Below are positions 250 to 52,587 of a stretch of DNA of 52,587 nucleotides, in pieces. Source of the DNA: Corynebacterium sp. Lineage in GTDB: Bacteria; Actinomycetota; Actinomycetes; Mycobacteriales; Mycobacteriaceae. Position 1 is the first letter of the stretch. Each line of letters starts with the position of its first letter. The position numbers and the translations under genes are program-made. Location of the stretch: the NCBI RefSeq assembly GCF_030538285.1, contig NZ_JAUNUG010000020.1, positions 1 to 52,587 on the forward strand. The letters run 5' to 3'. Below the pieces are notes generated by a model that was not told the DNA's origin, did no database searches, and worked only from the letters and a program-made list of their open reading frames with translations.

Positions 250-262
250 GCTTATCGACGCC
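250..262 (-). repeat. Dispersed 13-mer, perfect copy 1 (intergenic)
   Basis: GCTTATCGACGCC, the reverse complement of GGCGTCGATAAGC, sits 10 bp before the pcaIJ terminator stem. Confidence 0.9.
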
Positions 263-272
263 CGCCGCCTCA

Positions 273-313
273 AAAGCGCCCGCCTCCCCCGGGGGCGGGG
301 AAACGGGCGCTTT
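273..313 (-). terminator. Rho-independent terminator of pcaIJ
   Basis: AAAGCGCCCG (273-282) pairs perfectly with CGGGCGCTTT (304-313) around a C/G-rich loop. Read on the minus strand the stem ends in TTTT, as expected downstream of pcaJ. Confidence 0.8.
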
Positions 314-405
314 GTAAGGTTTTCAGGGCCGGGCCGCACAGGCGGGGCTAAAACCCCAGGTCGCGGAAAGCGAAATCGCTCCGGGCCCGGAAAATCTCAC
401 CAGAC

Positions 406-1050: not shown

Positions 1051-1793
1051 TACTGGGTCACCGTCCTGTTCTCGATACCGGTCTCCTGCTTGCCGACCTC
1101 GACGACGCGGTCGACGAAGATGCCGGGGAGGTCGACGTCTTCGGGGTCGATGACGTCGACAAGCTCTTCCACCTGGGCGATGGTGACCTTGCCGCTCATG
1201 GCGGCGTCGGGGTTGAAGTTCATGGCGGTCTTGTTGAAGACCAGGTTGCCGTAGCGGTCACCCTTGGCGGCGTGGACCAGGGCGAAGTCCGCGCGGATGG
1301 ATTCCTCGAGGACGTAGAGCTGGCCGCCAAACTCGCGGGTTTCCTTGGGCTTGGAGGTCACGGCGACGGTGCCGTCTTCGTTGTAGCGCTGCGGGAGGCC
1401 ACCTTCGGCGACCTGGGTGCCCACACCGGCGGTGGTGTAGAAGGCGGGGATGCCGGCGCCGCCGGCGCGCATGCGCTCGGCGAGGGTGCCCTGCGGGGTG
1501 AATTCGACGGTGAGCTCACCGGCGAGGTACTGGCGGGCGTATTCCTTGTTGGATCCGAGGTAGGAGCCGATGGACTTGGAGATGCGCTTGTCCGCCAGCA
1601 GCAGGCCGAGGCCGAAGCCGTCGGTGCCGAGGTTGTTGGACACGATGGTGAGGTCGGTGGCGCCCTGCTCGCGGAGGGCATCGATGAGTCGGGCGGGGAT
1701 GCCGACCAGTCCGAATCCGCCGACGGCGATGGTCACGCTGTCGGGGATGTCGGCGACGGCCGCATCAACTGAGGGGAGGGTCTTGTCAAGCAT
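1050..1793 (-). CDS. pcaI: 3-oxoadipate CoA-transferase subunit A
   Basis: A 247-residue alpha subunit of the same CoA-transferase. The conserved GGFGLVGIP loop near residues 25-33 marks the CoA-transferase family I alpha fold. The gene diverges from pcaR across a 78-bp region holding a perfect palindrome and a plausible promoter (-35 TTGTGC at 1825-1830, -10 TACAGT at 1801-1806, 18-bp spacer, read on the minus strand). The leader is short and the ribosome-binding site weak. It forms an operon with pcaJ. Confidence 0.95.
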
Positions 1794-1871: not shown

Positions 1872-2648
1872 ATGGCCAGCCCTGAGACACCGAATGTCCA
1901 GTCGCTCGTCCGCGGTCTGGCGGTGATCCGCACGTTCAACGCTGATCGCCCCCGCCAGACGCTCGCCCAGGTCGCTGAGGCCACCGGACTGGCCCGCGCT
2001 ACCGCCCGGCGTTTCCTGCACACACTGGTCACCGTCGGTTATGCCTCCACCGACGGCACTGAATTCTGGCTCACCCCCCGGGTCCTGGAACTCGGTTACA
2101 GCTACATGTCAGGCCTGGGGCTGCCCGCGATTGCGCAGCCGCGCCTGGAGGAGCTCTCCCGCCACATCGGTGAATCCTCCTCCCTGTCGGTGCTCGACGG
2201 ACATGAGGTCGTCTATGTCAACCGCGTCCCGGTGCGTCGCATCATGACCGTCTCCATCACCATCGGCACCCGCTTCCCCGCGTACGCCACGTCCATGGGC
2301 CGCGTCATCCTGGCAGGCTTGCCCGCCGATGAGCTGGAGCGATACCTGGATACGGTGGAGTTTGAGGCTTTCACTCCGTCCACGCTTACCGACGCCGCCG
2401 CCCTCTACACCGAGCTCTCCCGCACCCGGGAGCAGGGCTTTTCCATCGTGGACCAGGAGCTGGAGCCCGGATTGCGGTCCTTGGCAGCACCGGTGCACTC
2501 CCCTGCTGGGAAGGTGGTGGCGGCGGTCAACGTCTCGACGCAGACCGCCGTCCATGACCTGGAGGAGCTGCACAACCGTTTCCTCCCGGCACTTATTGAT
2601 ACCGCTGAACTGATCACCGCCGACCTGGCGGCCACGGAACTTTTCTAG
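1872..2648 (+). CDS. pcaR: IclR-family transcriptional regulator of the protocatechuate branch
   Basis: A 258-residue IclR protein. A winged helix-turn-helix lies at about residues 30-55 (TLAQVAEATGLARATARRFL), followed by the IclR effector-binding domain. I chose the ATG at 1872 because it follows a strong AGGAGAAAGGAG ribosome-binding site; an in-frame GTG at 1842 falls inside the operator palindrome and has no such site. It is divergent from pcaIJ and 15 bp ahead of pcaF. PcaR proteins respond to beta-ketoadipate pathway intermediates; whether this one represses or activates each promoter is inference. Confidence 0.92.
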   Translation: MASPETPNVQSLVRGLAVIRTFNADRPRQTLAQVAEATGLARATARRFLHTLVTVGYASTDGTEFWLTPRVLELGYSYMSGLGLPAIAQPRLEELSRHIGESSSLSVLDGHEVVYVNRVPVRRIMTVSITIGTRFPAYATSMGRVILAGLPADELERYLDTVEFEAFTPSTLTDAAALYTELSRTREQGFSIVDQELEPGLRSLAAPVHSPAGKVVAAVNVSTQTAVHDLEELHNRFLPALIDTAELITADLAATELF

Positions 2649-3893: not shown

Positions 3894-4661
3894 ATGATCC
3901 TGCACTCCGTTTCCTACGGCCCCGAGTCCGATGCCGAGCCGGTCGTCTTCCTCGGCTCCATCGCCTCCACCACCGACATGTGGCTCCCGCAGCTCGACGA
4001 GCTGTCCAAGACCCGTCGTGTCATCGCCCTCGACCACCGCGGCCACGGCCAGTCCCCCGACCCGGATGTCGCGCCTGGTGACACCACCTTCGACCACCTG
4101 GCCGAGGATGTGCTGAGCACGCTGGACCAGCTCGGCGTCGATAAGTTCCAGGTTGTCGGCCTGTCCCTGGGCGGTGCCATCGCCCAGTACATGGCGCTAA
4201 CATCCCCGCGTGTGACCCGCGCTGGTTTCCTGTGCACCGCCGCCTACTTCGGGGGTCCGGAGAAGTGGAACCCGCGCGCCGAACTCACCCGTGCGGAAGG
4301 CTTGGAACCCATGGCCGACGGGGTTATCGATTTCTGGCTGACCAAGGACTTCCAGGCCGCCCACCCCGCGACCACTGCCCGCTACCGCCGCATGGTGGTA
4401 TCCACCCGCGGTTCCGGTTACGCCTCCGCCTCCGACGCGTTGGCCCACTGGGACATTCGCGAGCGCCTTGCCGAGATCACCGTCCCGGTCCTCGTCCTGG
4501 CGGCCTCGGACGATCAGTCCACTCCCCCTTCCGCGCTGAAGGCCATCGCCGAGGGTGTTACCGGCGAGGCGACCTTCGTCGAGGTCTCCCCCGGCGCACA
4601 TGTGCCGACCATCGAGGTGCCCGAGCAGGTCACCCAGGCCCTGGTCGAGTTCTTCGGCTAA
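3894..4661 (+). CDS. pcaD: 3-oxoadipate enol-lactone hydrolase
   Basis: A 255-residue alpha/beta hydrolase that opens 3-oxoadipate enol-lactone, the point where the catechol and protocatechuate branches join. The nucleophile elbow VGLSLGG puts the serine at residue 91, and the oxyanion loop and a late histidine (GAHVPT) are present. The start is 3 bp after the pcaF stop. It is a stand-alone PcaD, not the PcaL fusion with PcaC found in some actinobacteria, since pcaC is separate at 23.7 kb. A strong terminator follows. Confidence 0.93.
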   Translation: MILHSVSYGPESDAEPVVFLGSIASTTDMWLPQLDELSKTRRVIALDHRGHGQSPDPDVAPGDTTFDHLAEDVLSTLDQLGVDKFQVVGLSLGGAIAQYMALTSPRVTRAGFLCTAAYFGGPEKWNPRAELTRAEGLEPMADGVIDFWLTKDFQAAHPATTARYRRMVVSTRGSGYASASDALAHWDIRERLAEITVPVLVLAASDDQSTPPSALKAIAEGVTGEATFVEVSPGAHVPTIEVPEQVTQALVEFFG

Positions 4662-4667
4662 ACCGCC

Positions 4668-4680
4668 GCTTATCGACGCC
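4668..4680 (-). repeat. Dispersed 13-mer, perfect copy 2 (intergenic)
   Basis: GCTTATCGACGCC lies 6 bp after the pcaD stop, and its last two bases begin the terminator stem. It is the last copy before the restriction island. Confidence 0.9.
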
Positions 4681-4717
4681 GCCGCCTCCTCGTTTCCGGG
4701 GAGGCGGCGGTGTTGTT
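4679..4717 (+). terminator. Terminator of pcaRFD
   Basis: CCGCCGCCTCC (4679-4689) pairs with GGAGGCGGCGG (4700-4710) and is followed by TGTTGTT. It also covers the end of the convergent small gene. Confidence 0.8.
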
Positions 4718-4901
4718 AAGTGCGGATGTTGAAGGTCTCCGGAGGGTGCCCGGTGGTGAGGCATGCGACCTCACTAACTGCGTCCTCGAGTTCGGCAAGC
4801 GTGCGGGCCTGTGTTGTCTGTTGGAGTGTGGGAATATCAGCGATCCACCAATCGCCTTCCTGGCGGATCTCCACGTCCAGGGTCTGCGTTTTACTCACCA
4901 C
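4716..4901 (-). CDS. Small HicB-like antitoxin-type protein
   Basis: A 61-residue protein whose core (EGDWWIADIPTLQQTTQART) resembles the single beta-alpha fold of HicB-like antitoxins, in which a WW(V/I)A(D/E)-P pattern is followed by a TQA-R-L-E helix. It starts with GTG (4901 or 4898; the second overlaps the preceding stop as GTGA). It ends against the pcaD terminator. No HicA-like mRNA interferase is visible nearby, so it is either an orphan or part of a decayed toxin-antitoxin pair at the left edge of the island. Family assignment is from pattern recognition only. Confidence 0.55.
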   Translation of the reverse strand: MVSKTQTLDVEIRQEGDWWIADIPTLQQTTQARTLAELEDAVSEVACLTTGHPPETFNIRT

Positions 4902-5080
4902 TCCAACTCCTCCGATCCGGCCGCAGGGCCTTCCTCACGGGCCTGCCGAACGGACTCGACCAATCCAGGAATCTGCACCAGCCGTTCCGTTTCCCGGCTG
5001 CCCCAATCGTCCAGGTCCGACACTTTGCCCACCTTCCCTGACAAGCGATCTTTTCGACTGACGATACCCTCGCACGGACG
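4895..5080 (-). pseudogene. Possible antitoxin remnant upstream of the HicB-like gene
   Basis: The minus-strand frame ending at 4895 remains open far upstream, but only its last 50 or so residues look protein-like (GSRETERLVQIPGLVESVRQ followed by an acidic tail ending ELEW). This recalls the C-terminal helix of Phd/YefM-type antitoxins, whose genes often overlap a downstream partner, as this one does (GTGA). The upstream part is rich in Trp, Arg and Gly with no recognisable domain, so the real gene may be truncated. The left limit is set by the stop; the upper limit is approximate. Confidence 0.3.
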
Positions 5081-5483
5081 CCCAGTACATGGGGCGGCGA
5101 CAGATGGGACTAATCCCATGGATAACCCAAAATGCGCCTTAAACATCCCCAGAAAAGCCAGGGCATGCGTCCCCGGCAGCTCATGCGCCCAGGCACGGCC
5201 CCCAGCTTGCCTACCCTGAATCGGACTCCATCTTCGCCGATCTCGTTTCCGACCTTGACGATGAGGAACATCCCTAGAGCGAGGAGAGCCCAGGCCCCTC
5301 TCGTCTGACACTCGCCACATTTCCCCGCGGCTGCCGACCCATCGACACACCCCGCTTGGCCATGACAGACCGATAAACACAGCGCCTTGGGAAGCTCTAA
5401 GTGGTCTACCGTGCACCTGTGTTCATTGCCTACCAATCGCCCATTCCCCCCGTCCGACCTGGCCTAATATCCAGTCACACAGA

Positions 5484-5524
5484 CTGTGTACATAGGTAGG
5501 GTTGACACAACCTGTGTACATAGG
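5484..5524. promoter_or_regulatory. Two near-palindromic operators over the NYN-operon promoter
   Basis: CTGTGTACATAGG occurs at 5484-5496 and again at 5512-5524, 28 bp apart. Each is a near-palindrome around TGTACA (full form CCTGTGTACATAGG at 5511-5524). The second fills the spacer between -35 and -10; the first lies just upstream of -35. This is the arrangement of a repressor with two sites. The HTH-bearing product of the second gene is a candidate autoregulator (inference). Confidence 0.65.
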
Positions 5525-5531
5525 CTAATCT
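5502..5531 (+). promoter_or_regulatory. Promoter of the NYN/restriction operon
   Basis: TTGACA (5502-5507), 18-bp spacer, TAATCT (5526-5531); the -10 fits the corynebacterial TAnnnT form. The leader to the ATG at 5580 is about 40 nt. Confidence 0.7.
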
Positions 5532-5579
5532 CTAAATCAGTTCAAACGAACAAACACAAAAAAGATAGAAGGAAACACC

Positions 5580-6053
5580 ATGTACGTACGACGCCTCGTC
5601 CTCATCGATGTTGAGAACTTCAACGGAGGACCTGTCCAGACCCCTGCCCAGGCCCGTTGGTGCCGACGAATGATTGACAACTGGATTAAGCCCAAGGATG
5701 GCGACATTGTCGTCCTGGCCGCAGACGTCACCACGGTGACCAACGTATATGCCGGATGGCCCTCCCACCGAGTCCTTCCCGGATACGGAGACAACGGTGC
5801 AGACCTCCAGCTCCTGGGGGTCATGGAGGAGGACCTCGCTACCAGGTTCACCGAAATGCTCCTTGTCTCCGGAGACCGAATCTTCGCCGAGAAGGTGTCT
5901 TGGCTGGCCGGCCAGGGCCTCCACACCACCGTGTACGCCCATCAGACCCGCCTCGCCAAGCGACTCGCGTTCGCCGCCGCCGCGGTGATCACCACCACGG
6001 CCCCCTCCACTTCCACAGTCGACTCTCTCCCCGTTCCCCGAAAGGTTCATTAA
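5580..6053 (+). CDS. NYN/PIN-like domain putative ribonuclease
   Basis: A 157-residue protein that looks like a NYN (LabA/PIN-like) nuclease. It opens with a strand ending in an acidic pair (RLVLIDVENFNG, D10 and E12). A middle acid lies in NGADLQLL and a late strand in LLVSGDRIFAEKVSWL, whose aspartate matches the family GD/SD position. NYN enzymes usually cut RNA using Mg2+ held by these acids. The C-terminus is a short Thr/Ser-rich tail. Its stop codon abuts the ATG of the next gene (TAAATG), so the two are likely co-translated. A NYN gene at the head of a type I restriction operon is unusual in my experience. Confidence 0.7.
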   Translation: MYVRRLVLIDVENFNGGPVQTPAQARWCRRMIDNWIKPKDGDIVVLAADVTTVTNVYAGWPSHRVLPGYGDNGADLQLLGVMEEDLATRFTEMLLVSGDRIFAEKVSWLAGQGLHTTVYAHQTRLAKRLAFAAAAVITTTAPSTSTVDSLPVPRKVH

Positions 6054-8108
6054 ATGACCGCCCCCGCTGGCCGCCTGGCTATCAAGGACATCGCCGCGCT
6101 GGCAGACGTCACCCGCGCCGCCGTGAGCAACTGGCGAGCTCGGCACGAAGACTTCCCCTCTTCCACTGCGGACTCCAATGCCCGTCGCCCTTTGTTTGAC
6201 TTCGACGAGGTGATCGTCTGGCTGGAATCCAAGGATCTCCTCCCGGAGGGGGCAGCCAAGAAGCAGACCCAGGTTCAGCTCTTGGCTCTTGCAAATACCC
6301 TGCGAGGTGTTCTCCCCCCTACCGAGATCTCCCCGGTCTTCCTCTACCTGCTAGCCCTGCGTAAGCAAGCCACCACCGGCACGAACTCGACGACCTGGCA
6401 GTCCGTCGTCGCTGCAACCAGCGGGGATGAGCTGGCGCAGATTCTGGAGGACGTTCCCTCCCCTACGGGAACACCGCTCGTTCACGATCTGCACATTGCC
6501 GACCGTATCAGGGACACCTTCTCTGATGAGCATGTCTCGAGTCTGACGCTCGGTATCGACAATCTGAGAATCGAGGATTACGGGCACGCTGCCCAGCTGA
6601 TCATTGATGCCTTTCTCGGTCTCGGCGGCCGAGGCAAGGACAGCGAATTCGGCACCTCGAAATCGACCTCATCCACCCTCCTCGTCAACGCCGCGAATAC
6701 CACCCTTGCTGACGGAGATACTCTGTTCGACCCAGCGTGCGGCATCGGAGGGACCCTTCTCGCGCTGAGTCGGGAGGCCGAGAGGCTGACCATTACTGGC
6801 AGTGACATCAACCCCTGGGCAGTAGCCATCGCGGAGCTCCACGCTTACCTCGCTGATGTCCCTGCTTCGTTCACCCGGGCGGACTCTCTGGCACAAGATC
6901 CCCACGAACACCTGCAGGCCACCAGCATCGTGATGGAACCCCCCTTTGCCATGAGGGTGGATCGATCCATCCAGCAGGATCTGTTGGCGAGAGCAGGTAT
7001 TGATGTGTCTGGCAGCTTTTACAGCGAGGACGCCTTCCTCCTCTACGCATTGACTCACCTTGCCCCCGGTGGGCACGCGTATGTTCTGACCCCGACAGCA
7101 TCTGCCTACCGACGTCAGTCGGTTCAACTACGGCAGACATTCGTAGCCCATGGCGTTGTGGAAGCGGTGATCCAAATGCCTCCGAGGTTGCTGTCCTACT
7201 CCGTTATCCCCACCGTGCTGTGGGTTTTGCGGGCCCCGGAGTCGACACCAGACACCACGGTGTTGATCGCCGACGCCAGCAACGCAACCTTCCCCGAAAC
7301 CCAAGTCGGAGAGTGGCTGGCGGACATGCGGTCAGGTCGCGACACTTCGATCCCCAGTAAGCAGCTCACCCTCGCCGAATTGATCACGAACGAAGGCACG
7401 TTGCTTCCAGCCCAGCTGCTGCGCGAAGTACCCGACCAGCAGGAAGTCCGGGACAACCTCCACCAGTCAGTGTCCGACATGATCGCGACCCTGGGATCTC
7501 TCCAAGGCATGGTGCAGGTCCGTGAGGGGCTTTTCGAATCGCTACCTAACTCCACGCGCACGGCAAGTCTTCAGCAGCTCATCGAGGCCGGTCTCATCAC
7601 TCGTCTCCGCGGCACCTACAGGCCCTCCAAGAGCGAGACTCCTGACACGGGTGTTCCCGCCAGCCTCGCGCATGCCCGGGCTCAGCACCGCAACATCGAG
7701 GAAGTCCAGGTGCCGAAGGACTCCTTGTGGTTGGAGGACCGGGACATCCTTGTTCCGGACCTGGCCGGAGTGCCCGCCTGGGTCTTCCATGCTGACGGTT
7801 CCCGCTGGGTTGTTTCCGACAATGTAACGATCCTACGAATTACCGAACCCGAGCTTGACCCCCACTACTTGGCTGCCTGCATCAACGCCTCGTTCAATGA
7901 GGCAGCCGACCTCGGAACAACGATCCAGCGCCGAGACTTCCGACAGATCGAGATCCCGAACCTCGACAGCACACGTCAGACCGAGATTGCTGACTCACTG
8001 CACAGGTTGGCAGCTCTCCAAGCCGCAGCTGAGACGCTTTCTCAGCAGGTCAACACGGCAGTGGATGCAGCGATGAATCTGGTCCGCTATGGCGGCGACA
8101 CCACCTAG
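6054..8108 (+). CDS. HTH - N6-adenine methylase-like - specificity-domain fusion protein
   Basis: 684 residues with three visible parts. Residues about 8-35 are a helix-turn-helix (IKDIAALADVTRAAVSNWRA). Residues about 190-420 are a HsdM-like methylase fold with a good SAM motif DPACGIGG (226-233), but motif IV reads EPPF (295-298) where active N6-adenine methylases have N/D/S-PP-Y/F. Residues about 530-684 resemble half a HsdS: a target-recognition-like segment (DILVPDLAG...) and a closing coiled coil (QTEIADSLHRLAALQAAAET). It is distinct from the canonical HsdM that follows. It could be a regulator, a DNA-binding subunit or a defence protein; the altered motif suggests it may bind SAM without methylating. 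Start is the ATG touching the preceding stop. Confidence 0.7.
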   Translation: MTAPAGRLAIKDIAALADVTRAAVSNWRARHEDFPSSTADSNARRPLFDFDEVIVWLESKDLLPEGAAKKQTQVQLLALANTLRGVLPPTEISPVFLYLLALRKQATTGTNSTTWQSVVAATSGDELAQILEDVPSPTGTPLVHDLHIADRIRDTFSDEHVSSLTLGIDNLRIEDYGHAAQLIIDAFLGLGGRGKDSEFGTSKSTSSTLLVNAANTTLADGDTLFDPACGIGGTLLALSREAERLTITGSDINPWAVAIAELHAYLADVPASFTRADSLAQDPHEHLQATSIVMEPPFAMRVDRSIQQDLLARAGIDVSGSFYSEDAFLLYALTHLAPGGHAYVLTPTASAYRRQSVQLRQTFVAHGVVEAVIQMPPRLLSYSVIPTVLWVLRAPESTPDTTVLIADASNATFPETQVGEWLADMRSGRDTSIPSKQLTLAELITNEGTLLPAQLLREVPDQQEVRDNLHQSVSDMIATLGSLQGMVQVREGLFESLPNSTRTASLQQLIEAGLITRLRGTYRPSKSETPDTGVPASLAHARAQHRNIEEVQVPKDSLWLEDRDILVPDLAGVPAWVFHADGSRWVVSDNVTILRITEPELDPHYLAACINASFNEAADLGTTIQRRDFRQIEIPNLDSTRQTEIADSLHRLAALQAAAETLSQQVNTAVDAAMNLVRYGGDTT

Positions 8109-8230
8109 ATCCGCCGCACACCGCAGCGCCCGGCTCACACACGGGCGTTCGACCAAAGCGCAGGGTGTCGGCAGCCATGTCGGTACCTGCCCTTAAGCTA
8201 CATAAACCACCTCAATATAAGGAAAAGACT

Positions 8231-9841
8231 TTGACCCCGAAGACCACGGGCGAGGCTCTGCCCTCGACCATGAAGGAACTGAAGGACACTCTCTGGAAGG
8301 CCGCCGATAGGCTCCGCGGCTCGATGGACGCCTCCCAGTACAAGGACGTCATCCTTGGCCTGGTGTTCCTCAAGTACGTCTCTGACGCTTTCACCGAACG
8401 TCGAGCCCAAATCCGCAAGGAACTCGCAGCGAACGGCATGACGGAAGAGCAGATCGACATGCTCATTGACGATGTCGACGAATACACCGGCCACGGCGTG
8501 TTCTGGGTTTCAGCAGAAGCCCGCTGGGAGTACCTGGCCAACAACGCCAAGGGACTCCCGGCCATGAACGGTCAGGCGCCGAAGAGCATCGGTGAGCTGG
8601 TCGACACCGCCATGAACCTGGTCATGGACCACAACCCCACCCTCGCCGGCACATTGCCGCGCATCTTCAACCGCGACAACGTCGACCAGCGCCGCCTCGG
8701 CGGGCTGATTGATCTGTTCAACACCACCCGCTTCACCGGACAGGGCCCCGCCCGTGCTCGAGATCTCCTCGGTGAGGTCTACGAGTACTTCCTGGAGAAG
8801 TTCGCTCGCGCGGAGGGCAAGCGCGGCGGCGAGTTCTACACCCCGGCCGATGTTGTCCGGGTTCTCGTTGAGGTTCTGGAGCCGACCAGCGGACGGGTCT
8901 ACGACCCCTGCTGTGGTTCGGGCGGCATGTTCGTCCAGACGGAGAAGTTCCTCGATGCCCACAACGAGGACCGCACCGCTATCTCGGTCTACGGCCAGGA
9001 ACTCAATGAACGCACCTGGCGGATGGCCAAGATGAACCTGGCCATCCACGGACTCAACGGCAACCTCGCTCCCCGCTGGGGAGACACCTTCGCCCGAGAC
9101 CAGCACGCGGACATGCAGGCCGACTACACCCTGGCCAACCCCCCGTTCAACATCAAGGACTGGGCACGCAACGAGGAAGACCCCCGCTGGCGCTACGGTG
9201 TGCCCCCGAAGAACAACGCCAACTACGCCTGGATCCAGCACATCATCTCCAAGCTGGCCCCCGGCGGCTCCGCCGGCGTGGTCATGGCCAACGGATCCAT
9301 GTCCTCCAACACCGGTGGCGAAGGCAAGATCCGTGCCGAGCTGGTGGAAGCCAACCTTGTCTCCTGCATGGTGGCACTTCCCACCCAGCTGTTCAGATCC
9401 ACCGGCATCCCGGTGTGCGTCTGGTTCTTCGCCAAGGACAAAACCACTGGTGAGCAAGGTTCCAACGACCGCACTGACCAGGTCCTTTTCATTGACGCCC
9501 GCAACCTCGGCACAATGATCGACCGCGCGGAACGAGAGCTCACCACCGAGGACATCGCCAAGATCGCCGACACCTTCCACGCATGGCGCGGCACCCCATC
9601 CGCCGAGAGTAAGACCTACGAGGATGAAGCCGGTTTCTGCTACTCAGCCACCCTGGAAGAAATCAGGGACGCTGACTACGCCTTGACACCCGGGCGCTAC
9701 GTGGGTGTAACCGACGTCGAGGACGATGGCGAACCGATTGAAGAGAAGATCTCTCGTCTGAAGAAGGAACTCTTTGAGCAGTTCAAAGAATCCGAGCGGC
9801 TGGCTGCCGTGGTGCGTGAGCAATTAAGGAAGATTCACTGA
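8231..9841 (+). CDS. hsdM: Type I restriction-modification methylase subunit HsdM
   Basis: A canonical HsdM of about 536 residues that methylates adenine in the HsdS-specified site, normally as M2S. The N-terminal HsdM domain (AADRLRGSMDASQYKDVILG) is followed by SAM motif DPCCGSGG (about 225-232) and catalytic NPPF (303-306). I prefer the TTG at 8231, preceded by AAGGAAAA, because homology begins just after it. In-frame GTG 8165 and ATG 8177 would add a poorly conserved extension. The stop overlaps the hsdS ATG by one base (TGATG). Confidence 0.92.
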   Translation: MTPKTTGEALPSTMKELKDTLWKAADRLRGSMDASQYKDVILGLVFLKYVSDAFTERRAQIRKELAANGMTEEQIDMLIDDVDEYTGHGVFWVSAEARWEYLANNAKGLPAMNGQAPKSIGELVDTAMNLVMDHNPTLAGTLPRIFNRDNVDQRRLGGLIDLFNTTRFTGQGPARARDLLGEVYEYFLEKFARAEGKRGGEFYTPADVVRVLVEVLEPTSGRVYDPCCGSGGMFVQTEKFLDAHNEDRTAISVYGQELNERTWRMAKMNLAIHGLNGNLAPRWGDTFARDQHADMQADYTLANPPFNIKDWARNEEDPRWRYGVPPKNNANYAWIQHIISKLAPGGSAGVVMANGSMSSNTGGEGKIRAELVEANLVSCMVALPTQLFRSTGIPVCVWFFAKDKTTGEQGSNDRTDQVLFIDARNLGTMIDRAERELTTEDIAKIADTFHAWRGTPSAESKTYEDEAGFCYSATLEEIRDADYALTPGRYVGVTDVEDDGEPIEEKISRLKKELFEQFKESERLAAVVREQLRKIH

Positions 9842-11037: not shown

Positions 11038-11135
11038 TCCGCATCTAGCGTCGACTGGGCTCCTTCATGGCCTGAGCAGCAGCCGGCGCTGGATAGAGTT
11101 AAGTCAACGACCTAACAGAAGAAAGCAGGAAGGGC

Positions 11136-14324: not shown

Positions 14325-14361
14325 CCCAAGACAGATCGAGATCTCGTGCCCACACGAGTAC

Positions 14362-17405: not shown

Positions 17406-17431
17406 GGCTTAAAGGTAGCGTCGATAAGCTC

Positions 17432-30331: not shown

Positions 30332-31830
<1,499 letters not shown>

Positions 31831-36247: not shown

Positions 36248-36287
36248 AACAGGGTTCGCCCGCACCAGCACGACTAAAGTAGGAACA

Positions 36288-40582: not shown

Positions 40583-40645
40583 CGCTGGTGGGCGGGTGTG
40601 CAGATTAATAGAAATGTGCACTCGAGGGTGCGTCGATAAGCAATG

Positions 40646-42008: not shown

Positions 42009-42021
42009 GCTTATCGACGCC
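42009..42021 (-). repeat. Dispersed 13-mer, perfect copy 7 (clpP1 upstream region)
   Basis: GCTTATCGACGCC, 7 bp beyond the ClgR-like box, between divergent clpP1 and the alcohol dehydrogenase gene. Confidence 0.9.
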
Positions 42022-43229: not shown

Positions 43230-44585
43230 TTAGTCCTCGGAAGCCTCGGCCTCAGCGGCCTCCGGCTCCTCGCCGAAGTACTCGGCCGGGTCGACGTCGT
43301 TGCCAGCGTCGTCCTTGACGGAGACGCGGCAGATGGCGGCGGCGAGAGCCTTGCCGCGGCGGACGTCAGAGAACAGGTTCGCGATCTGGCCGGACTGCTG
43401 CAGCTGGCCGACGAACTGGTTCGGGTCCATGCCGTAGGACTGTGCGGTGAACAGGATGTGGTCGGTGAGCTCCTGCTGGGAGACCTCCGGGTTCTCCTGC
43501 TCAGCGAGGGTGTCCAGGAACAGCTGGGTGCGCACGGCCTCCTCGGAGTCATCGCGGGCCTGGGCGTCGAACTCCTCGCGGGTCATGCCCTGGGACTTCA
43601 GCACCTCCTCGAGGGCCTTCTCGTCGTGTGCCATCTGGCCGAGCAGCTGGTGCAGCTGCTGGTGGACCTGCTCGTCGACGATGGACTCCGGGAGAGCGAA
43701 ATCGGTCTTGGCCAGGGCGGCCTTGAGGACCTCGTCGCGGATGTTGGCGGCCTGCTGGGCCTTCTTGGATTCTTCGACCTGGGCCTTGGTGGCGTCGCGA
43801 AGCTCCTCGGCGGTGTCGAATTCGGAGGCGAGCTGGGCGAACTCGTCGTCGAACTCGGGAAGCTTGCGTTCCTTGGTCTGCTGGACGTGGACGGCCACGG
43901 TGGCCTCCTTGTCCTTGTGCTCGCCGGCGACGATCGTGGTGGTGAACTCGTTGTCCTCACCGGTCTTCATGCCGCGCAGAGCGGTGTCGAGGCCGTCGAT
44001 GAGATCACCCTGGCCGATCTCGTAGGACAGACCCTCGGTGGTGGCCTCGTCGACGACCTCGCCGTCGACGGTGGCCTTGAGGTCGATGACGGCGAAATCG
44101 CCGGTCTTCAGCTTGCGCTTGGTGTCCTTGAGCTCACCGAAGCGGCCGCGCAGACGATCGATCTCCTCGTCGACAGCCGCGTCGTCGACCTCGACGGCCG
44201 GGACGGTGACGGACAGCTCAGAGAAGTCCGGGACCTCGAACTCGGGGCGGATGTCCACCTCGGCGGTGAACTCCACGAAGTCGTTGTCCTCGATCTTGGT
44301 GATGTCGACGCTCGGCTGGCCGATAGCGACGATCTCATTCTCCTCGACAGCCTTCTGGTACTGGGCCGGCAGCATGTCGTTGACAACCTGCTCGAGAATG
44401 GGGCCGCGGCCGTAACGGGCGTCGATAAGCTGGCGCGGTGCCTTGCCCTTACGGAAACCCGGAATGGACACCTGCTGTGCGATAGCCGAGTAGGCCTGGT
44501 CAATCTCAGTCTTGAGGTCCTCGAACGGGACGTTGACGGTGAGCTTGACGCGGGTGTCGCTCAGCTTCTCGACGGAACTCTTCAC
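43230..44585 (-). CDS. tig: Trigger factor
   Basis: A 451-residue ribosome-bound chaperone and peptidyl-prolyl isomerase. The ribosome-binding signature GFRKGKAP lies near residue 45, the FKBP-like domain at about 150-240, and a long helical C-terminal domain ends in an acidic tail. I chose GTG 44585 ([10 protein letters not shown]), preceded by AGGAGAG; an open stretch further upstream lacks conservation. Confidence 0.95.
44418..44430 (+). repeat. Dispersed 13-mer, perfect copy 8 (antisense inside tig)
   Basis: In tig it is read as QLIDARYG, a different frame and strand from the GVDK copies. Confidence 0.9.
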
Positions 44586-44955: not shown

Positions 44956-44968
44956 GGCGTCGATAAGC
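44956..44968 (+). repeat. Dispersed 13-mer, perfect copy 9 (intergenic)
   Basis: Between tRNA-Gly and the DUF1542 gene, 35 bp before that gene's GTG. Confidence 0.9.
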
Positions 44969-46724: not shown

Positions 46725-47665
46725 TGATCTGCTACCTTCCGGATCACGTCAGCCGCGCGCTGGGCTGCACCGGCAGTCTGCCACCGTATCCATCGGCTGT
46801 CTATGGATTGAGCCTCAGAAAGTAATGCAGGCCACTCCTCCGGCTCGGGCCAGGTGTGCCGGGTGAGGGCGAGGTGGGCGTCGGCAAGCAGGTCGGCAGT
46901 GGCGTGTTGCTCGGCGAAGGGGCGCTGTTGCGGGAGGATGAGCGCTGGCGTGTCGGCCACGGCGATGTCGGCGATGGAGTTTTGTCCGCCCGCGGCGACG
47001 ACCACGTTCGCGCCGGTCAGGTACGGCAGCGGGTCGGCCACGGCGGTGTCGCCGCCGAGGAAGCGGAAGCTGCGCTCCGGGCAGGCGGCTTGCACGGCGT
47101 CCCAGTGCCCAGCGCTCCAGTCGGTGCCGCCGCGGCCGCAGAGGACCACGACATCGCCGTCAATGTTCTCCCCCGGGCCCGAAAAACGCGAAATTCCGCC
47201 GACCTGTTGGACGCGCGCGCCGTGGGCGTGCAGGTGCGGGGGTAGCGGCACCCAGTTGGGCCAGGCGGCGATGATCGCGGCGGCCTGCCGGTAGCCGAGC
47301 TGGTGGGCGTGGTCATCACGCACGCCGGGCATGGCGAGGGTGATCACGGGCACGCCCATGAGGCGGACCAGCAGCGCCACCTCGACGGAGACGTCGACGT
47401 AGAACGCGCGCGGGCGGTGCTCGTCGATCCAGGCGGCGAGCTGCGCCATCCGACCCCGCAGCCCGGCATGCCCGGGTGGTGCGTAGTGCAGCGTGTCGTG
47501 GGCGGTGAGGTCGGTGCTTATCGACGCCCCCGCGTCGTCGATAAGCACCACATCCGCGGAAGGATCGGTGGACAGGAGCTGGGAGTCGCCGCCGAGGGCG
47601 GCCATGATGGTGCGGCAGCGGTGGACGTGCCCGCTGCCGTGGTGGTGGGCGTAGAAGCCGATCAT
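46721..47665 (-). CDS. GT-B glycosyltransferase, MurG/GT28-like
   Basis: 314 residues starting MIGFYAHHHGSGHVHR, the His/Gly loop typical of MurG-like N-terminal domains. The C-terminal donor-binding half contains AAGGQNSIADIAV and PQQRPFAEQ. Both ends overlap neighbours by 4 bp. Probably transfers an N-acetylhexosamine or similar; donor unproven. Confidence 0.8.
   Translation of the reverse strand: MIGFYAHHHGSGHVHRCRTIMAALGGDSQLLSTDPSADVVLIDDAGASISTDLTAHDTLHYAPPGHAGLRGRMAQLAAWIDEHRPRAFYVDVSVEVALLVRLMGVPVITLAMPGVRDDHAHQLGYRQAAAIIAAWPNWVPLPPHLHAHGARVQQVGGISRFSGPGENIDGDVVVLCGRGGTDWSAGHWDAVQAACPERSFRFLGGDTAVADPLPYLTGANVVVAAGGQNSIADIAVADTPALILPQQRPFAEQHATADLLADAHLALTRHTWPEPEEWPALLSEAQSIDSRWIRWQTAGAAQRAADVIRKVADQ
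47516..47546. repeat. Dispersed 13-mer, perfect copy 10, paired with a 12 of 13 inverted copy
   Basis: A perfect reverse copy (47516-47528) faces a near copy (47534-47546). GTGCTTATCGAC and GTCGATAAGCAC form a perfect 12-bp stem with an 11-nt loop inside a glycosyltransferase coding region (protein VLIDDAGASIST). Confidence 0.9.
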
Positions 47666-48720
47666 CGGGCGGGTACCTCCGTGTACAGCGCGGCATAGCG
47701 GCGGGCCACCTGGTGCAGGCTGTGGTGGCGCACGACCCAGTCGCGGACCACACCGCGGTCGATCTCGGCGGCGACGTGGAGAGCGGCGGCCAGAGAATCT
47801 ACGTCGTCCGGGGCGGCCAGTGCGGCGGGGGCGTGGTGGAGTTGTTCGGCGAGGCCGCCGCGTCGGAAAGCGGCGACGGGGGTGCCCGCGGCCATGGCCT
47901 CGAAGGCGACCAGGCCGAAGGGCTCCTCCCAGCGCGGGGTGACCAGGCAGACGCGGCAGTGGCCGACCAGGGACTGGAGTTCGGCGTGATCGAGTTCGCC
48001 GACCCAGGTGGCGGCGCGGCCGGTCATGCGGGGGACGATCTCGGTGGAGAAGTAGCGGTGATCGCCGATGCGCCCGGCGAAAAGCAGGGGGATCCCGGCG
48101 CGGCGGCAGGCGTCCATGGCCAGGTGGAGGCCCTTTTCCGGGACGATGCGCCCGAACCAGACGGCGGCCTCCCCGCCGGGGCCGGGTTGCCAGGAGGTGG
48201 TGTCCACGCCGTTGGGGATGACGGTGACCGGGCGCGGGAGGCGCCAGTCCGCGGCGGTGGCGGCGGAGACCGCGGCGAAGCGGCCCGCGCGGGGCCCGGC
48301 GGCGGCGATGGCGGCCTCCATCTCGGGCAGGGACGGGGTGTGCAGGGTGGTCAAAAGCGGCAGGTCATGGCCGAAAAGAACCGGGGTGAGGCTGTTGTTG
48401 TGGACCAGGTCGTAGTCGGCGCGTTCCAGGTGGCGGGCGAGGTGCCGAAAAGCAGCGTCCTCCACGGCGCGTGCCCCGGGCGGGTAGGCGGTGTCGCTGG
48501 CGGCGAGCAGGTCCCTGCCCCAGGAGATGCCGGGCAGCTCATGCTCGGTGACATGCCCGTGGGAGCCGGCGGAGGCATAGAGGTCGACGTGGTGGCCGAG
48601 TTCGCGGACGGCGGCGACCAGGGTGTGACAAAAGGCCTCGAGGCCACCGGCGTAGGGCTCGCGGATGGGGTGGCGGGCGGGTGCGATGAGCGCGATGCGC
48701 GCCCGGGTGGCCAGGGTCAT
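47662..48720 (-). CDS. Glycosyltransferase family 4-like protein
   Basis: 352 residues, GT-B. N-terminal glycine loop PYAGGLEAF; C-terminal domain with GRIVPEKGLHLAMDAC and the retaining EX7E region EEPFGLVAFEAMAAGTPV. This is the GT4 pattern seen in phosphatidyl-inositol mannosyltransferases and capsule enzymes. It overlaps both neighbours by 4 bp (ATGA). Confidence 0.87.
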   Translation of the reverse strand: MTLATRARIALIAPARHPIREPYAGGLEAFCHTLVAAVRELGHHVDLYASAGSHGHVTEHELPGISWGRDLLAASDTAYPPGARAVEDAAFRHLARHLERADYDLVHNNSLTPVLFGHDLPLLTTLHTPSLPEMEAAIAAAGPRAGRFAAVSAATAADWRLPRPVTVIPNGVDTTSWQPGPGGEAAVWFGRIVPEKGLHLAMDACRRAGIPLLFAGRIGDHRYFSTEIVPRMTGRAATWVGELDHAELQSLVGHCRVCLVTPRWEEPFGLVAFEAMAAGTPVAAFRRGGLAEQLHHAPAALAAPDDVDSLAAALHVAAEIDRGVVRDWVVRHHSLHQVARRYAALYTEVPAR

Positions 48721-49697
48721 CGCCCGCTCACCTCCCGGTACACCGCGCGGTGGGCGGCGCGGATCTGTTGCAGTTGCGCGGCACGGTCGCCGGTGTAGGG
48801 CAGCGGGCCTTGTTCGTGGAGGTGGATGAGCGCGCGGGCGGCGTCGAGGGGGTCGCCGGTGGCGTACTTTGCGACGCCCCGTTCATCATCCGCCTGCCCC
48901 GCGTACATGCCGCAGTCCGGCACGGCGACGACCGCGCCGAGGTCGCGGCACATCTCCAGCCAACCGGAGTGGGTGCCGCGGGTATAGGGCAGGAGCACGG
49001 TGGCGCATTGTCCGACCGCGGCGTGGAGGGTGGCATCCGACATGGGGGCGTGCAGGCGCAGGTCAATGAGGCCGCTGGACTGTTCCGCGCCCAGCGCGCG
49101 GACCAGGTGGGCGGTGCGGGCGTCCTCGTGGAGGTGGAGGCGCAGGGGTTGGCCGGTGGCGCGGTGCACGCTGCGCGCCAGGATGCGGTAGAAGACCGGG
49201 TCGGTGATGACGTTGGCGCGCAGGGACTTCAGGAACACCCCGATGGCGTCCCCGGTGGCGGTGGCGCGGGGCGGATCGGCGACCACGCGCGGGTGCCCGA
49301 TGACGTGGGTGCCGGCGGGGAGGTGGGCGGCGGCGTCGGAAGTGAGGGTGATGAGGGCGGCGGCGGCGTCGATAAGCAGGCGCAGCTTGGCGTGGTGCTC
49401 ACGCTGGTCCGTGAAATGCGGATTGTCCAGGTCGTGGACGGTGAGCACGAGCGGGACGCCGCGGCGGTCCAGCGCCCGGATGAGCGCGCGGGTGTCGTTG
49501 ACGCTGAGGTGGTCGAAGCCGAAGTGCAGGTGGACGAGGTCGGGCAGGTCGCGGGTGGTGATCCACCAGTGGGCGTCGAGCGCCGGGTGCGGCCACCAGT
49601 TGCCGTCAATGTCCGGGTCGGGCCGGAAGGACACATCCGCAGGCTTAATTGCCTGCGTGTAGACGTGCCCGGCCGGGATGGACAGGACATCGCACAT
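48717..49697 (-). CDS. GT-B glycosyltransferase-like protein
   Basis: 326 residues, first gene of the operon. LVHLHFGFDHLS and VLTVHDLDNPHF resemble the N-terminal half of GT-B enzymes; the C-terminal half has LPYTRGTHSGWLEMCRDLG but no clear EX7E, so it is divergent. ATG preceded by GAGGTGAC. Precise reaction unknown. Confidence 0.7.
   Translation of the reverse strand: MCDVLSIPAGHVYTQAIKPADVSFRPDPDIDGNWWPHPALDAHWWITTRDLPDLVHLHFGFDHLSVNDTRALIRALDRRGVPLVLTVHDLDNPHFTDQREHHAKLRLLIDAAAALITLTSDAAAHLPAGTHVIGHPRVVADPPRATATGDAIGVFLKSLRANVITDPVFYRILARSVHRATGQPLRLHLHEDARTAHLVRALGAEQSSGLIDLRLHAPMSDATLHAAVGQCATVLLPYTRGTHSGWLEMCRDLGAVVAVPDCGMYAGQADDERGVAKYATGDPLDAARALIHLHEQGPLPYTGDRAAQLQQIRAAHRAVYREVSGR
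49365..49377 (+). repeat. Dispersed 13-mer, perfect copy 11 (antisense in a glycosyltransferase gene)
   Basis: Read on the coding strand as LLIDAAA, the same frame as the tig copy. Confidence 0.9.
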
Positions 49698-49810
49698 TTG
49701 TCACCTCAATTTCATTAACGCCGACTAATATCGGAACCCCCGGTCATCATATGTGGATTTTTTTATTTTGGCCGGAAAGTGTGACCATAAACATGCATGG
49801 AAGTTAATAG
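49698..49810. promoter_or_regulatory. AT-rich divergent promoter region of the glycan locus
   Basis: 113 bp that are strikingly AT-rich for this chromosome (for example GGATTTTTTTATTTTGG). Both glycan operons start from it, so it probably holds two promoters and may be a target of an AT-binding silencer such as Lsr2 (inference). Confidence 0.55.
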
Positions 49811-50731
49811 ATGAGCGCCACGCCCACCCCACCCGACCTCCCCCGCCGCCGCCACTACGGCGACTTTTACCAGCTCAACCCCACTCCCCGCTCGCCACAC
49901 CTGCCCTTTGTCATGGTGATGGGCAACTGCCAGGCCGAATCCCTGCGCATCCTCCTCGCCAGTTCCGGCGCCGTGGACTCCTTCCGCATTCCCCCGGTCC
50001 ACGAATTCACCGCCGAAGATATCGCACTGCTGCGCCCCGTCCTGGCCCGCGCCGATGTGTTGATCACCCAACCCATCCGCGATAACTACCGTGACCTGCC
50101 GCTGGGCACCTCACAGCTGGCCGCACTTCTTCCCGCCGCGGCGCGCCAGATCCTGTATCCCGTCTTGCGATGGGACGGGCTCATGCCCTTCCACGCGATT
50201 ATCCGCGACCCGGACGATCCCTCCCGCAACCCACCCGTGGTTCCCTACCATGACCTGCGCCTGGTGGCCGCCGCGGCCCGGGGGCTCAACAGGCCCGCGC
50301 AACCGGTGGACCCTGACTTCCGCGCGGCGGCCGCCGCCTCCATTGCCCACCTGCGCGCCCGCGAGCAGTACCACGACACCGTCCGAGTCTCCGAGCACCT
50401 TCAGACCTACCCCGTGTGGCACACCATCAACCACCCCTCCAACGAGACACTCGCCTTCATGGCGCAAAGAGTCCTCGACGAAATCACCCCGGGCAGCGTC
50501 CATCCACCCACCGACCGGGAGATGCTCGGCGGGCTGCAGGCCCCGATCGATACGGCTGCGGCGCAGGCCTTGGGCGTCGACATCACAGGGCGCGATGAGT
50601 GGAGCGCCGCCGGCGTCCCCATCGCGGGCATCGCACAGGCGCAGCTGGCCTTCTACCGCGAGAATCCCCAGGTGGTGGAGGCGGGTCTGCACCGCCACGC
50701 CGAGCGCCTGAATATCCTGGGACTGGCATGA
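49811..50731 (+). CDS. WcbI-like polysaccharide biosynthesis protein (putative acetyltransferase)
   Basis: 306 residues. VMGNCQAESLRILL near residue 36 and TQPIRDNYRDLPLGT are hallmarks of WcbI, a capsule biosynthesis protein that binds CoA. It may acetylate a surface glycan. A basic proline-rich N-terminus precedes the domain. ATG follows GGAAG; its stop overlaps the next gene by 4 bp. Confidence 0.8.
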   Translation: MSATPTPPDLPRRRHYGDFYQLNPTPRSPHLPFVMVMGNCQAESLRILLASSGAVDSFRIPPVHEFTAEDIALLRPVLARADVLITQPIRDNYRDLPLGTSQLAALLPAAARQILYPVLRWDGLMPFHAIIRDPDDPSRNPPVVPYHDLRLVAAAARGLNRPAQPVDPDFRAAAAASIAHLRAREQYHDTVRVSEHLQTYPVWHTINHPSNETLAFMAQRVLDEITPGSVHPPTDREMLGGLQAPIDTAAAQALGVDITGRDEWSAAGVPIAGIAQAQLAFYRENPQVVEAGLHRHAERLNILGLA

Positions 50732-52587
50732 TCACCCACCTCATCGTCGGCCCAGCAGGCCACGGCGTCACCGAATACGCCCGCAGCCTGGCCACCCACT
50801 CGCCTGGTTCCCTCCTGGTGGAGGTCGGGCCCCTCCCCCCGGGTCCGGTCCACGTCACCTTCACCGACCACCTCTTCGGACCTTCCCCGGAAGCGGCGGT
50901 GGATGCGGTCCTGGCCCGCTGCGCCGGGCATCCACTCAGTGTCAGCCTGCACGATATTCCGCAGCGGGCGGAGGGGTGGGAGCGCTACGCCCGGCGCGCC
51001 CCGGCCTATCATCGGCTGGCGGATGCCGCGGACCTGGTGGTGCTCAACTCCCGGCACGAGGCGGCGTTCTTCGGCTCTGAGCTGCCGGTAGTTCCCTTGC
51101 CAGTGCCGATGATCGATTCGCCCTATGATCCGGAAGCAGCAACGGTGGGGATCCTCGGCTTCATCTACCCCGGCAAGGGACACGACGATCTGCTGCGCGC
51201 CGTCGCCGGCATCGGACTGCGCGTGCGGGCCCTGGGATCGGTCAGTTCCGGACACGAGGACTGGGCCGCGCAGCTGCAGACTTTGGCCGCTGAGCTGGAC
51301 GTCGACTTCGAGATCACCGGCTGGCTCAGCGATGCCGAACTCGCCACCGAGATGGGCCGCATCGCCATCCCCGTATGCGCCCACCGCCACTACTCGGCTT
51401 CCGGATCGCTCATGGCCTGGCTCGGGGCGGGCCGAAAAGTACTGGTCAGCGACTCGCCCTATACCCAGGAGATGGCGCAGACCTGGGCGGGCATCGAGAT
51501 CGTCGACGATTGGCCCACCGCCCTGGCCGCTTTCCAGCCCACCAAGCCCACGCCCGTGGACAGCTGGGACTGGCCGGATGTCGCCGCCGCCTGGCAAGAG
51601 CACTGGCGCCGCCTGTGGCCCACGGTGTCGGTAGTCATCCCCTACTACGACAATCCGACGGGCCTGGCGGAGGTGCTCGGGGGCGTCGATAAGCAGGATT
51701 ACCCGGGGGACATCGAAGTCATCGTCGCCGACGACGGCTCCCCCACCCCGCCCGCGGTCGACGCAATCATCGTGCGCCAGGACGATCAGGGCTTCCGCGC
51801 CGCTGCCGCCCGCAACCTCGGCGCGGCGCGCGCCACCGGGCAGGTCCTCGCCTTCCTCGACGGCGACACCGTCCCCACCCCCGGCTACCTCACGGCCGTG
51901 GTCCCGCATGTGCTTGCCGACGCCCGCGTGGTCGTCGTCGGCACCCGACTCACCGGCCCGGACCAGCGCGAACCCGAATGGCTCGCTGAGGCCTGGGAAC
52001 GCACCGGCCACCTCCAGCGCGCCGACGACACCTCCTGGCGCTTCGTCATCTCCGCCGCCTTGAGCTGCAGCGCATCCTTCTTCCGGGAGATCGGCGGCTT
52101 CGACGCCAGCCTCATCGGCTACGGCGGGGAGGACTGGGAGTTCGGCCACCGCGCCTGGCAGGCCGGGGCACGGTTGGTCCACGAACCCCGGGCGATCACC
52201 ACCCACGAGGAGCCCGACTGGGGTGCCCGCGGCGCCGACCTCGCCGAGAAGAACGCCGAAACCGCCGCACTGGCCCACCGCATCACCCACCCCATCGCCC
52301 GGCCCGTGGGCGTCATCTTCGACACCGCCGACATCGAGGTCCACGTCCCCGGCTGGGCCGATCCCGGCGTGACCGAGACCGTCATCATCGGGTGGCTGCG
52401 CGCCGGGGACGTCCACGTCATCACCGCCCCCATCCCGGAACTTTTCCGCGCCGACCCCCGCGTACGCACCAAGGCCCAGGGCGCGCGCAGCACCATCTAC
52501 CTCGACGCTCCCGCCATCCCCACCGGGCCCGTCGCCGACCTGCCACCCGGCCCGCAGTACCACGGTGAGCGGGTGGTGGCGCGGGTG
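50728..52587 (+). CDS. Two-domain glycosyltransferase (GT-B plus GT-A), partial
   Basis: Open from the ATG at 50728 to the window end (620 codons) with no stop. Residues 1 to about 290 look like a GT4-type GT-B domain (ILGFIYPGKGHDDLLRAV; SASGSLMAWLGAG). From about 305 a GT2 domain begins (TVSVVIPYYDNP), with VIVADDGS, FLDGDTVP as DxD and GYGGEDWEFGHRAW as ED motif. The fused pair would add two sugars in sequence. It is translationally coupled to the WcbI-like gene. Confidence 0.82.
   Translation, partial: MITHLIVGPAGHGVTEYARSLATHSPGSLLVEVGPLPPGPVHVTFTDHLFGPSPEAAVDAVLARCAGHPLSVSLHDIPQRAEGWERYARRAPAYHRLADAADLVVLNSRHEAAFFGSELPVVPLPVPMIDSPYDPEAATVGILGFIYPGKGHDDLLRAVAGIGLRVRALGSVSSGHEDWAAQLQTLAAELDVDFEITGWLSDAELATEMGRIAIPVCAHRHYSASGSLMAWLGAGRKVLVSDSPYTQEMAQTWAGIEIVDDWPTALAAFQPTKPTPVDSWDWPDVAAAWQEHWRRLWPTVSVVIPYYDNPTGLAEVLGGVDKQDYPGDIEVIVADDGSPTPPAVDAIIVRQDDQGFRAAAARNLGAARATGQVLAFLDGDTVPTPGYLTAVVPHVLADARVVVVGTRLTGPDQREPEWLAEAWERTGHLQRADDTSWRFVISAALSCSASFFREIGGFDASLIGYGGEDWEFGHRAWQAGARLVHEPRAITTHEEPDWGARGADLAEKNAETAALAHRITHPIARPVGVIFDTADIEVHVPGWADPGVTETVIIGWLRAGDVHVITAPIPELFRADPRVRTKAQGARSTIYLDAPAIPTGPVADLPPGPQYHGERVVARV
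51682..51694 (+). repeat. Dispersed 13-mer, perfect copy 12 (inside the two-domain glycosyltransferase)
   Basis: Sense, encoding GGVDKQDYP, the same frame as the benD, pcaO and MFS copies. Confidence 0.9.

Follow-up and report, generated by a model that had tools for sequence, protein, structure and literature searches.

The window analysed here, that is, the whole stretch of 52,587 nt from Corynebacterium sp. (assembly GCF_030538285.1, contig NZ_JAUNUG010000020.1, positions 1-52,587), is scattered with copies of a short DNA word that a preliminary description of the sequence had reported as the dispersed 13-mer GGCGTCGATAAGC. A pattern search returns 12 perfect and 12 one-mismatch copies of this 13-mer, 24 matches in total, whereas 100 dinucleotide shuffles of the window average 0.09 and never give more than 1, in agreement with the earlier statement that chance would supply far less than one. 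All 12 perfect and five 12-of-13 copies listed at that time are present at their reported positions, but seven further one-mismatch copies had been missed (2384, 18960, 20579, 25364, 37097, 38629 and 39211). Both the mixed orientation of the copies and their occurrence within as well as between genes, as first described, are confirmed. A shorter core, CGTCGNNAAGC (CGTCG-N2-AAGC), is found 39 times in the window, and is broken in three of the 12 one-mismatch 13-mers (4134, 20579 and 35854). The copies, together with one extended interval that is devoid of them, are as follows.

250..262, minus strand: perfect 13-mer, intergenic, core at 250-260
1154..1164, plus strand: core CGTCGACAAGC, antisense within gene 1050-1793
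2384..2396, minus strand: one-mismatch 13-mer, core CGTCGGTAAGC
4134..4146, plus strand: one-mismatch 13-mer GGCGTCGATAAGT, last core base broken
4668..4680, minus strand: perfect 13-mer, intergenic, 6 bp past the stop of gene 3894-4661
4679..15268, no strand: motif desert of 10.6 kb, GC content 0.60, with HsdM, HsdS, HsdR and the 3′ part of the GmrSD gene 14652-17102
15269..15279, plus strand: core CGTCGAGAAGC, within the GmrSD gene
17417..17429, plus strand: one-mismatch 13-mer, core CGTCGATAAGC, intergenic
18094..18104, plus strand: core CGTCGTCAAGC
18960..18972, plus strand: one-mismatch 13-mer, core CGTCGAGAAGC, intergenic
19695..19707, plus strand: perfect 13-mer, within gene 19137-21131
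19973..19983, minus strand: core CGTCGATAAGC
20579..20591, minus strand: one-mismatch 13-mer GGCGTCGATACGC, near-match of the core
22454..22464, plus strand: core CGTCGAGAAGC
24038..24048, minus strand: core CGTCGCAAAGC
24864..24874, minus strand: core CGTCGAGAAGC
25140..25150, plus strand: core CGTCGGCAAGC
25364..25376, plus strand: one-mismatch 13-mer, core CGTCGACAAGC
27948..27960, plus strand: perfect 13-mer, within gene 27267-28580
29609..29619, plus strand: core CGTCGGCAAGC
30215..30225, plus strand: core CGTCGAGAAGC
31346..31358, minus strand: perfect 13-mer, intergenic
31513..31523, plus strand: core CGTCGAAAAGC, intergenic
34559..34569, minus strand: core CGTCGAGAAGC
35696..35708, plus strand: perfect 13-mer
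35854..35866, minus strand: one-mismatch 13-mer GGCGTCGATAAGG, last core base broken
37097..37109, minus strand: one-mismatch 13-mer, core CGTCGAGAAGC
38629..38641, plus strand: one-mismatch 13-mer, core CGTCGACAAGC
39115..39125, minus strand: core CGTCGACAAGC
39211..39223, minus strand: one-mismatch 13-mer, core CGTCGAGAAGC
40629..40641, plus strand: one-mismatch 13-mer, core CGTCGATAAGC, intergenic
42009..42021, minus strand: perfect 13-mer, intergenic
43793..43803, plus strand: core CGTCGCGAAGC, trigger factor gene
44418..44430, plus strand: perfect 13-mer, trigger factor gene
44564..44574, minus strand: core CGTCGAGAAGC, trigger factor gene
44956..44968, plus strand: perfect 13-mer, intergenic
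46879..46889, plus strand: core CGTCGGCAAGC
47516..47546: inverted core pair within gene 46721-47665 (47516-47526 minus strand, 47536-47546 plus strand)
47861..47871, plus strand: core CGTCGGAAAGC
49365..49377, plus strand: perfect 13-mer
51682..51694, plus strand: perfect 13-mer
51912..51922, minus strand: core CGTCGGCAAGC

The genome from which the window derives (2.95 Mb in 94 contigs) harbours 451 perfect 13-mers (232 on the plus and 219 on the minus strand; none for the reversed-pattern control) and 1,964 copies of CGTCG-N2-AAGC, divided 984/980 between the two strands, with 64 for the reversed control. In 118 kb of this DNA, the core occurs 69 times where 2.3 copies are expected. Its structure is defined by a sample of 441 kb (the window and 20 further stretches), which contains 290 copies with the two-base spacer, and 13, 5, 7 and 4 copies with spacers of 0, 1, 3 and 4, respectively. 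Single-substitution variants number 0-21 each in the same sample, barring three changes of the AA step, which reach 40, 44 and 51. The excess belongs to CGTCG-N2-AAGC, and the 13-mer, too long as the unit proposed originally, is the commonest form of this sharper word. Beyond the core, G is enriched upstream, first at about −5 to −1 and then from around −11 outwards, whilst A is favoured directly downstream; this flanking excess partly reflects codon position, persists after codon-phase matching, and is present at intergenic copies too. Genome-wide counts are clearly not close to a Markov expectation, one of two outcomes by which the preliminary description would have abandoned its proposal; the other, a single repeated gene family, was rejected alongside a transposed repeat, as the shared part is a word of 11-13 bp with a weak G-rich flank, spread over many unrelated genes.

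With regard to conservation beyond this genome, 201 Corynebacterium genomes, given here as G-numbers, were assessed. At least one copy of the 13-mer is present in 164 of them, and no more than two copies per genome occur amongst 271 genomes from 30 other genera of the family. The CG core, CGTCG-N2-AAGC, reaches at least 280 copies in 139 congeners and stays below 200 in 62, so that the hundreds of copies anticipated earlier, conserved in related species, are indeed found. Beyond the genus, this core is near or below its reversed control in all 199 genomes sampled from the order, the highest ratio to the control being that of G234 (418 vs 246).

A blind two-part word scan in G144 and G006 returned a different top word, CATCG-N2-AAGC (the CA core), at 56 and 41 copies per 100 kb, compared with expectations of 2.1 and 2.7. 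This CA core exceeds 600 copies genome-wide in 11 of the 201 genomes, ten of which are without a high CG core. One of the two core dialects is therefore carried by 149 of the 201 genomes, with neither at a high level in the other 52. Both are present in G143 (1,337 CA and 352 CG copies), possibly a species caught in the middle of a dialect switch. Amongst the 52, a weak CA excess is apparent in G073, G084 and G200 (159-213 copies) and a weak CG excess in G129 and G132 (115 and 116 copies, with controls of 27 and 42), and a search of six of these motif-lacking species (40-134 kb each) revealed no third core word. In the motif-lacking genomes G066, G072 and G081, counts of CGTCGNNAAGC fall short of those of the reversed control (22 vs 54, 20 vs 73 and 8 vs 61), as if the word were avoided. 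The two middle bases vary as well, on spectra that rest on samples of 10 to 290 copies: AT leads in the genome of the window and in G029, G104, G197 and G188, whilst the leading pairs are TC, CA and GA in G164, CA, TA and TC in G175, TC, GC and TG in G099, AC in G089, and GC and AC in G110 and G031.

Genes in the 441 kb sample were called with a home-made gene caller, which places 251 of the 290 copies within genes, 38 between them and one across a gene edge. The tendency of intergenic copies to sit near gene ends, noted in the preliminary description, is partly upheld: eight of the 38 lie within 13 bp of a gene 3′ end, but intergenic copies make up a small part of the total, at a density about equal to that within genes. 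A single antisense frame, reading L-x-D, holds 160 of the 251 genic copies. CTT is a rare codon for Leu in this DNA, accounting for 769 of 14,442 over 477 kb, and 170 of these 769 fall inside the motif. That selection acts on DNA and not on a protein motif, as had been proposed, can be followed in lepA (LepA_C), chosen purely as a tree marker for 30 species, 14 of which have the CG dialect, four the CA dialect and 12 neither. The peptides LVDA and LNDA are identical in all 30. Despite this, the full motif is formed at codons 117-119 as CTT GTC GAC in 10 of the 14 CG-dialect genomes and as CTT GTC GAT in all four CA-dialect genomes, and in none of the 12 that have neither. At codons 337-339, the motif is present in nine of the 14 CG-dialect genomes, all four CA-dialect genomes and one of the 12 with neither (G163, in the CA form). 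Since the peptides are the same, the synonymous codons are specific to the motif, and copies lie in several frames and between genes, selection must be on the DNA. At lepA, the dialect was thus switched in place by synonymous change. It is as good as certain that the word is a DNA-level, genus-wide and dialect-forming motif.

On a tree of the 30 LepA sequences, the presence of either dialect needs at least five changes, three of which are forced by well-supported branches, and the CA dialect needs at least four, two of them similarly forced. Congruence between dialect and phylogeny is poor for the CA form on this one gene tree. The simplest history would be one of ancestral presence, repeated loss and repeated switching, with gain also possible.

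Orientation along a whole chromosome was followed in G029, for which a complete chromosome is available, over 22 stretches on which the positions of origin and terminus were not mapped. These contain 97 plus and 108 minus copies, of which 53 plus and 55 minus belong to the first 11 stretches and 44 plus and 53 minus to the other 11; there is no replichore bias. Spacing between copies in the DNA of the window's genome is nearly random (n=306, mean 1,487 bp, coefficient of variation 0.94). For pairs less than 60 bp apart, 12 are inverted and three direct, and two of the inverted pairs (C10 and C64 of this genome) form perfect or near-perfect terminator-like hairpins. Neighbouring copies are of opposite orientation in 186/306, 112/183 and 136/227 cases in three CG-dialect samples (P 0.0005, 0.0075 and 0.007). 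The rate in samples of this genome, G029 and other CG-dialect genomes is about 60 %, compared with 50-53 % in shuffles. The alternation is non-significant in two smaller CA samples (26/51 and 21/36). Such alternation suggests that the site is functionally polar.

The word is depleted around prophage capsids. A phage capsid gene was found in 15 of the 70 motif-carrying genomes that were searched, which provided 16 prophage stretches, and expectations for these were taken from host density and rounded genome sizes. Within 6 kb of the capsid there are 35 copies, compared with 99.2 expected (P 9e-14), and the outer parts of the same stretches hold 40 compared with 63.6. In the window, the desert at 4679-15268 is the longest gap in the sample from this genome and is probably acquired DNA, though one gap of 10.6 kb amongst 306 is non-significant alone. 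HsdM, HsdS, HsdR, a further N6-methyltransferase gene and an adjoining GmrSD-type restriction gene occupy 6054-17102, mostly within this desert. A motif-poor contig end of 7.2 kb elsewhere in the genome harbours an IS3 transposase. In phage records, there is 1 copy in the 43.0 kb of BFK20, with 3 in StAB (40.5 kb) and 5 in Juicebox (39.6 kb); the argument here relies instead on the prophages, whose hosts are motif carriers.

Genes suited to DNA uptake are present in the genome of the window. For the Tad pilus, whose locus is present, there are Ssd, TadA, a TIGR03816 TadE-like protein and two TadB/C-type matches, with a further, weaker TadE match below the cut-off, whilst ComEA and ComEC are each recognized above the cut-off, by a helix-hairpin-helix repeat model and an N-terminal model, respectively. 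As genes that might separate motif carriers from motif-lacking species, both ComEC and the presence of Tad were rejected owing to their ubiquity, although TadA scores differ. Using a cut of 428 bits, set afterwards as the lowest score of a motif-carrying genome, TadA falls below it in none of the 46 genomes that have a dialect, and in 21 of the 34 that have neither (rank test, P 1e-9); similarly, fewer than two TadB/C matches occur in 15 of the 34 and two of the 46. The Tad and com gene calls of G164, and L208, looked unreliable and were given no weight. As a separate observation, in G006, G144 and G014 (L218 4349-6545, L219 2210-4388 and L220 3498-5706) the S20 gene is separated from the holA-comEC genes by a D12-class adenine methyltransferase gene and one for a DUF6996/DUF6997/DUF7226 protein; the first two genomes are of the CA dialect and the third of neither. 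There was no sign of this insert, which looks like a restriction-modification pair docked at the competence locus, in G152, in G163 or in four com loci of the CG dialect, a fifth such locus, that of G164, being amongst the unreliable gene calls.

Considered together, these features make it probable, by analogy with known systems, that CGTCG-N2-AAGC is a DNA uptake sequence (DUS) for Tad/Com transformation. This reading is favoured by hallmarks that are shared with established uptake sequences: strong over-representation, even use of both strands with no arm bias, genic and intergenic copies, dialects, depletion in acquired DNA (around capsids and in the restriction-modification island), inverted pairs, some of them terminator-like, and genes for an uptake pilus, ComEA and ComEC. 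The resemblance to DNA uptake sequences remarked upon in the preliminary description therefore fits most of the genomic comparisons, whilst leaving the machinery retained by motif-lacking species unexplained. The step from genomic pattern to uptake is one of analogy. The word in extracellular DNA would be bound by a receptor at the cell surface, probably one of the minor pilins of the Tad/Flp pilus, and the pilus would pull the bound DNA across the mycomembrane envelope, a feature of the genus. ComEA and ComEC would then pass one strand into the cell, where recombination would replace the resident allele. As word-bearing DNA would be taken up more often, copies would accumulate genome-wide by molecular drive; a shift in receptor preference would lead to their conversion in place to a new dialect, and a loss of transformation to their erosion. 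Within this scheme it is the sequence-specific uptake, the identity of the receptor, the drive and the equation of absence with loss that we infer.

The main rival is a dispersed binding site for a cytoplasmic protein of chromosome organization or DNA maintenance (a nucleoid protein, an SMC/Mks loader or something akin to the highly iterated palindrome HIP1), kept by selection and not yet acquired by newcomers such as prophages. A sharp 5-2-4 word on both strands of a complete chromosome would suit such a site, and depletion around prophage capsids would be expected for any selected host motif. Set against this, no gradient is visible along the 22 stretches of G029, and most copies are buried within genes, mainly in one tolerated frame. 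Low counts in 52 of 201 species, and changes of dialect, are likewise unexpected for a vital chromosomal function. HIP1 of cyanobacteria is, moreover, a palindromic octamer, GCGATCGC, whereas CGTCGNNAAGC is by its own sequence not palindromic. On balance, we regard a chromosomal site of this kind as unlikely. Peptide usage offers almost no alternative: that a frequent L-x-D peptide in biased codons generates the word would accord with the dominant antisense frame, but CTT is a rare codon concentrated within the motif, 38 copies are intergenic, and species with no motif elsewhere have none at the lepA peptides either, apart from a single one of the 24 site-by-species cases. The synonymous spelling of lepA and the intergenic copies refute this coding artefact.

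A polar element of the Chi type, or an FtsK-orienting polar sequence (KOPS), was already disfavoured in the preliminary description, and was rejected here for want of arm bias, which is the usual mark of Chi, and of RecC (PF04257), which is found in none of 80 genomes. There is seemingly very little prospect that the word is instead a Chi-type recombination hot spot read during double-strand break repair by a helicase-nuclease such as AdnAB, which was itself not searched for. The non-palindromic word, its G-rich upstream flank and an orientation alternation above that of shuffles in three CG-dialect samples, by which polarity may matter, are in keeping with it; the even strands in both halves of G029 speak against it, as does the length of the word, known Chi words being shorter. 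Even more doubtful is a recognition site for a DNA methyltransferase, or another epigenetic mark. The word is conserved and has a short gap, as such a site might, and the window does encode a type I restriction-modification system, though inside the motif desert; however, an over-represented, asymmetric word of nine bases is atypical of restriction sites, and two dialects in which the middle bases are free would call for a whole family of enzymes to track them.

Several observations weigh against an uptake sequence, and need to be held alongside the evidence in its favour. ComEC (200 of 201 genomes) and TadA (80 of 80) are present irrespective of motif status, so that the core machinery cannot explain presence or absence of the motif. 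Kinship is not corrected for in the TadA and TadB/C differences, and motif-lacking genomes (G172, G152 and G014) have the three highest TadA scores of all 80. No receptor gene that tracks the motif was found amongst Tad pilins and ComEA in the few motif-carrying and motif-lacking species compared, and gain or loss of these genes, showing no clear difference there, was set aside as an explanation. With regard to the copies themselves, intergenic density is hardly raised in the genome of the window and is low in G029 (9/205), and on the LepA tree the clustering of the CA label does not exceed that of shuffled labels. Two prophage stretches, L254 (11 vs 11.5) and L256 (10 vs 11.3), are at host density, flanking DNA included, and an 8.4 kb gap in this genome (C13, 39225-47644), of normal GC content, holds genes that yielded no identification and may not be foreign. 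Finally, no report of natural transformation in Corynebacterium was found in the open-licence literature, among the matches listed.

With these reservations, the best reading of CGTCG-N2-AAGC is that it would be the first DNA uptake sequence outside the Neisseriaceae and Pasteurellaceae, two families of Proteobacteria. Among the matches listed in the open-licence literature, there is no report of this word as an uptake sequence or as an over-represented word, and the letters of the 13-mer matched no paper there, although fragments of 10 or 11 bases occur in 17 papers. According to PMC12616744, Neisseriaceae and Pasteurellaceae are the only families with such DNA discrimination. PMC3630211 gives about 1,900 DUS per Neisseria meningitidis genome, eight DUS variants in that family, and two versions of the uptake signal sequence (USS) in Pasteurellaceae. 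The DUS, read by the minor pilin ComP, is like the present word in its roughly 2,000 short copies per genome, inverted pairs and species dialects. It differs in sequence (GCCGTCTGAA), the word here being unrelated, free at its two middle bases and flanked upstream by G-rich sequence, and also in setting, as the present case concerns Actinomycetota, a Tad pilus instead of a type IVa pilus, and a putative uptake role. The USS is similar in its high density and two versions, whereas its sequences (AAGTGCGGT and ACAAGCGGT) are unrelated to the core described here, for which the flank is G-rich and upstream, and phylum and pilus are different. Chi, KOPS and HIP1 resemble it solely as short, abundant chromosomal words, given that arm polarity sets apart the first two, RecC the Chi of RecBCD, and palindromic structure HIP1. 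Also in common with the present word, the USS consists of a core with preferred flanking bases.

To our knowledge, no sequence preference is known for transformation of the actinobacterium Micrococcus luteus, which like the genome studied here combines a Tad pilus with ComEA and ComEC. As set out in PMC4322843, from the text of which the term 'uptake sequence' is absent, Flp/Tad pili are required for transformation in M. luteus, and the same is expected in other Actinobacteria. We consider it fairly likely that Corynebacterium undergoes sequence-specific transformation, with a Tad/Flp receptor for CGTCG-N2-AAGC or CATCG-N2-AAGC and genus-wide dialects that are switched in place and repeatedly lost, and that this would be the first uptake-sequence system outside Proteobacteria, independently evolved. 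If true, a third, independent case, in another phylum and with a different pilus, would indicate that DNA uptake specific to self is something that evolves again and again. It would also lead one to expect natural transformation throughout a genus that includes skin commensals, pathogens and strains of industrial use. With its two core dialects, and with roughly one quarter of the sampled species lacking the word, the genus would then constitute a natural experiment in which to find the receptor and to test why uptake sequences arise, switch and disappear.

Elsewhere in the window, the region from 21240 to 38942 contains genes for aromatic-acid catabolism, namely a protocatechuate dioxygenase beta subunit, a benzoate dioxygenase large subunit and a LuxR-type regulator, accompanied by transporters that resemble aromatic acid/H+ symporters (matches below the cut-off).

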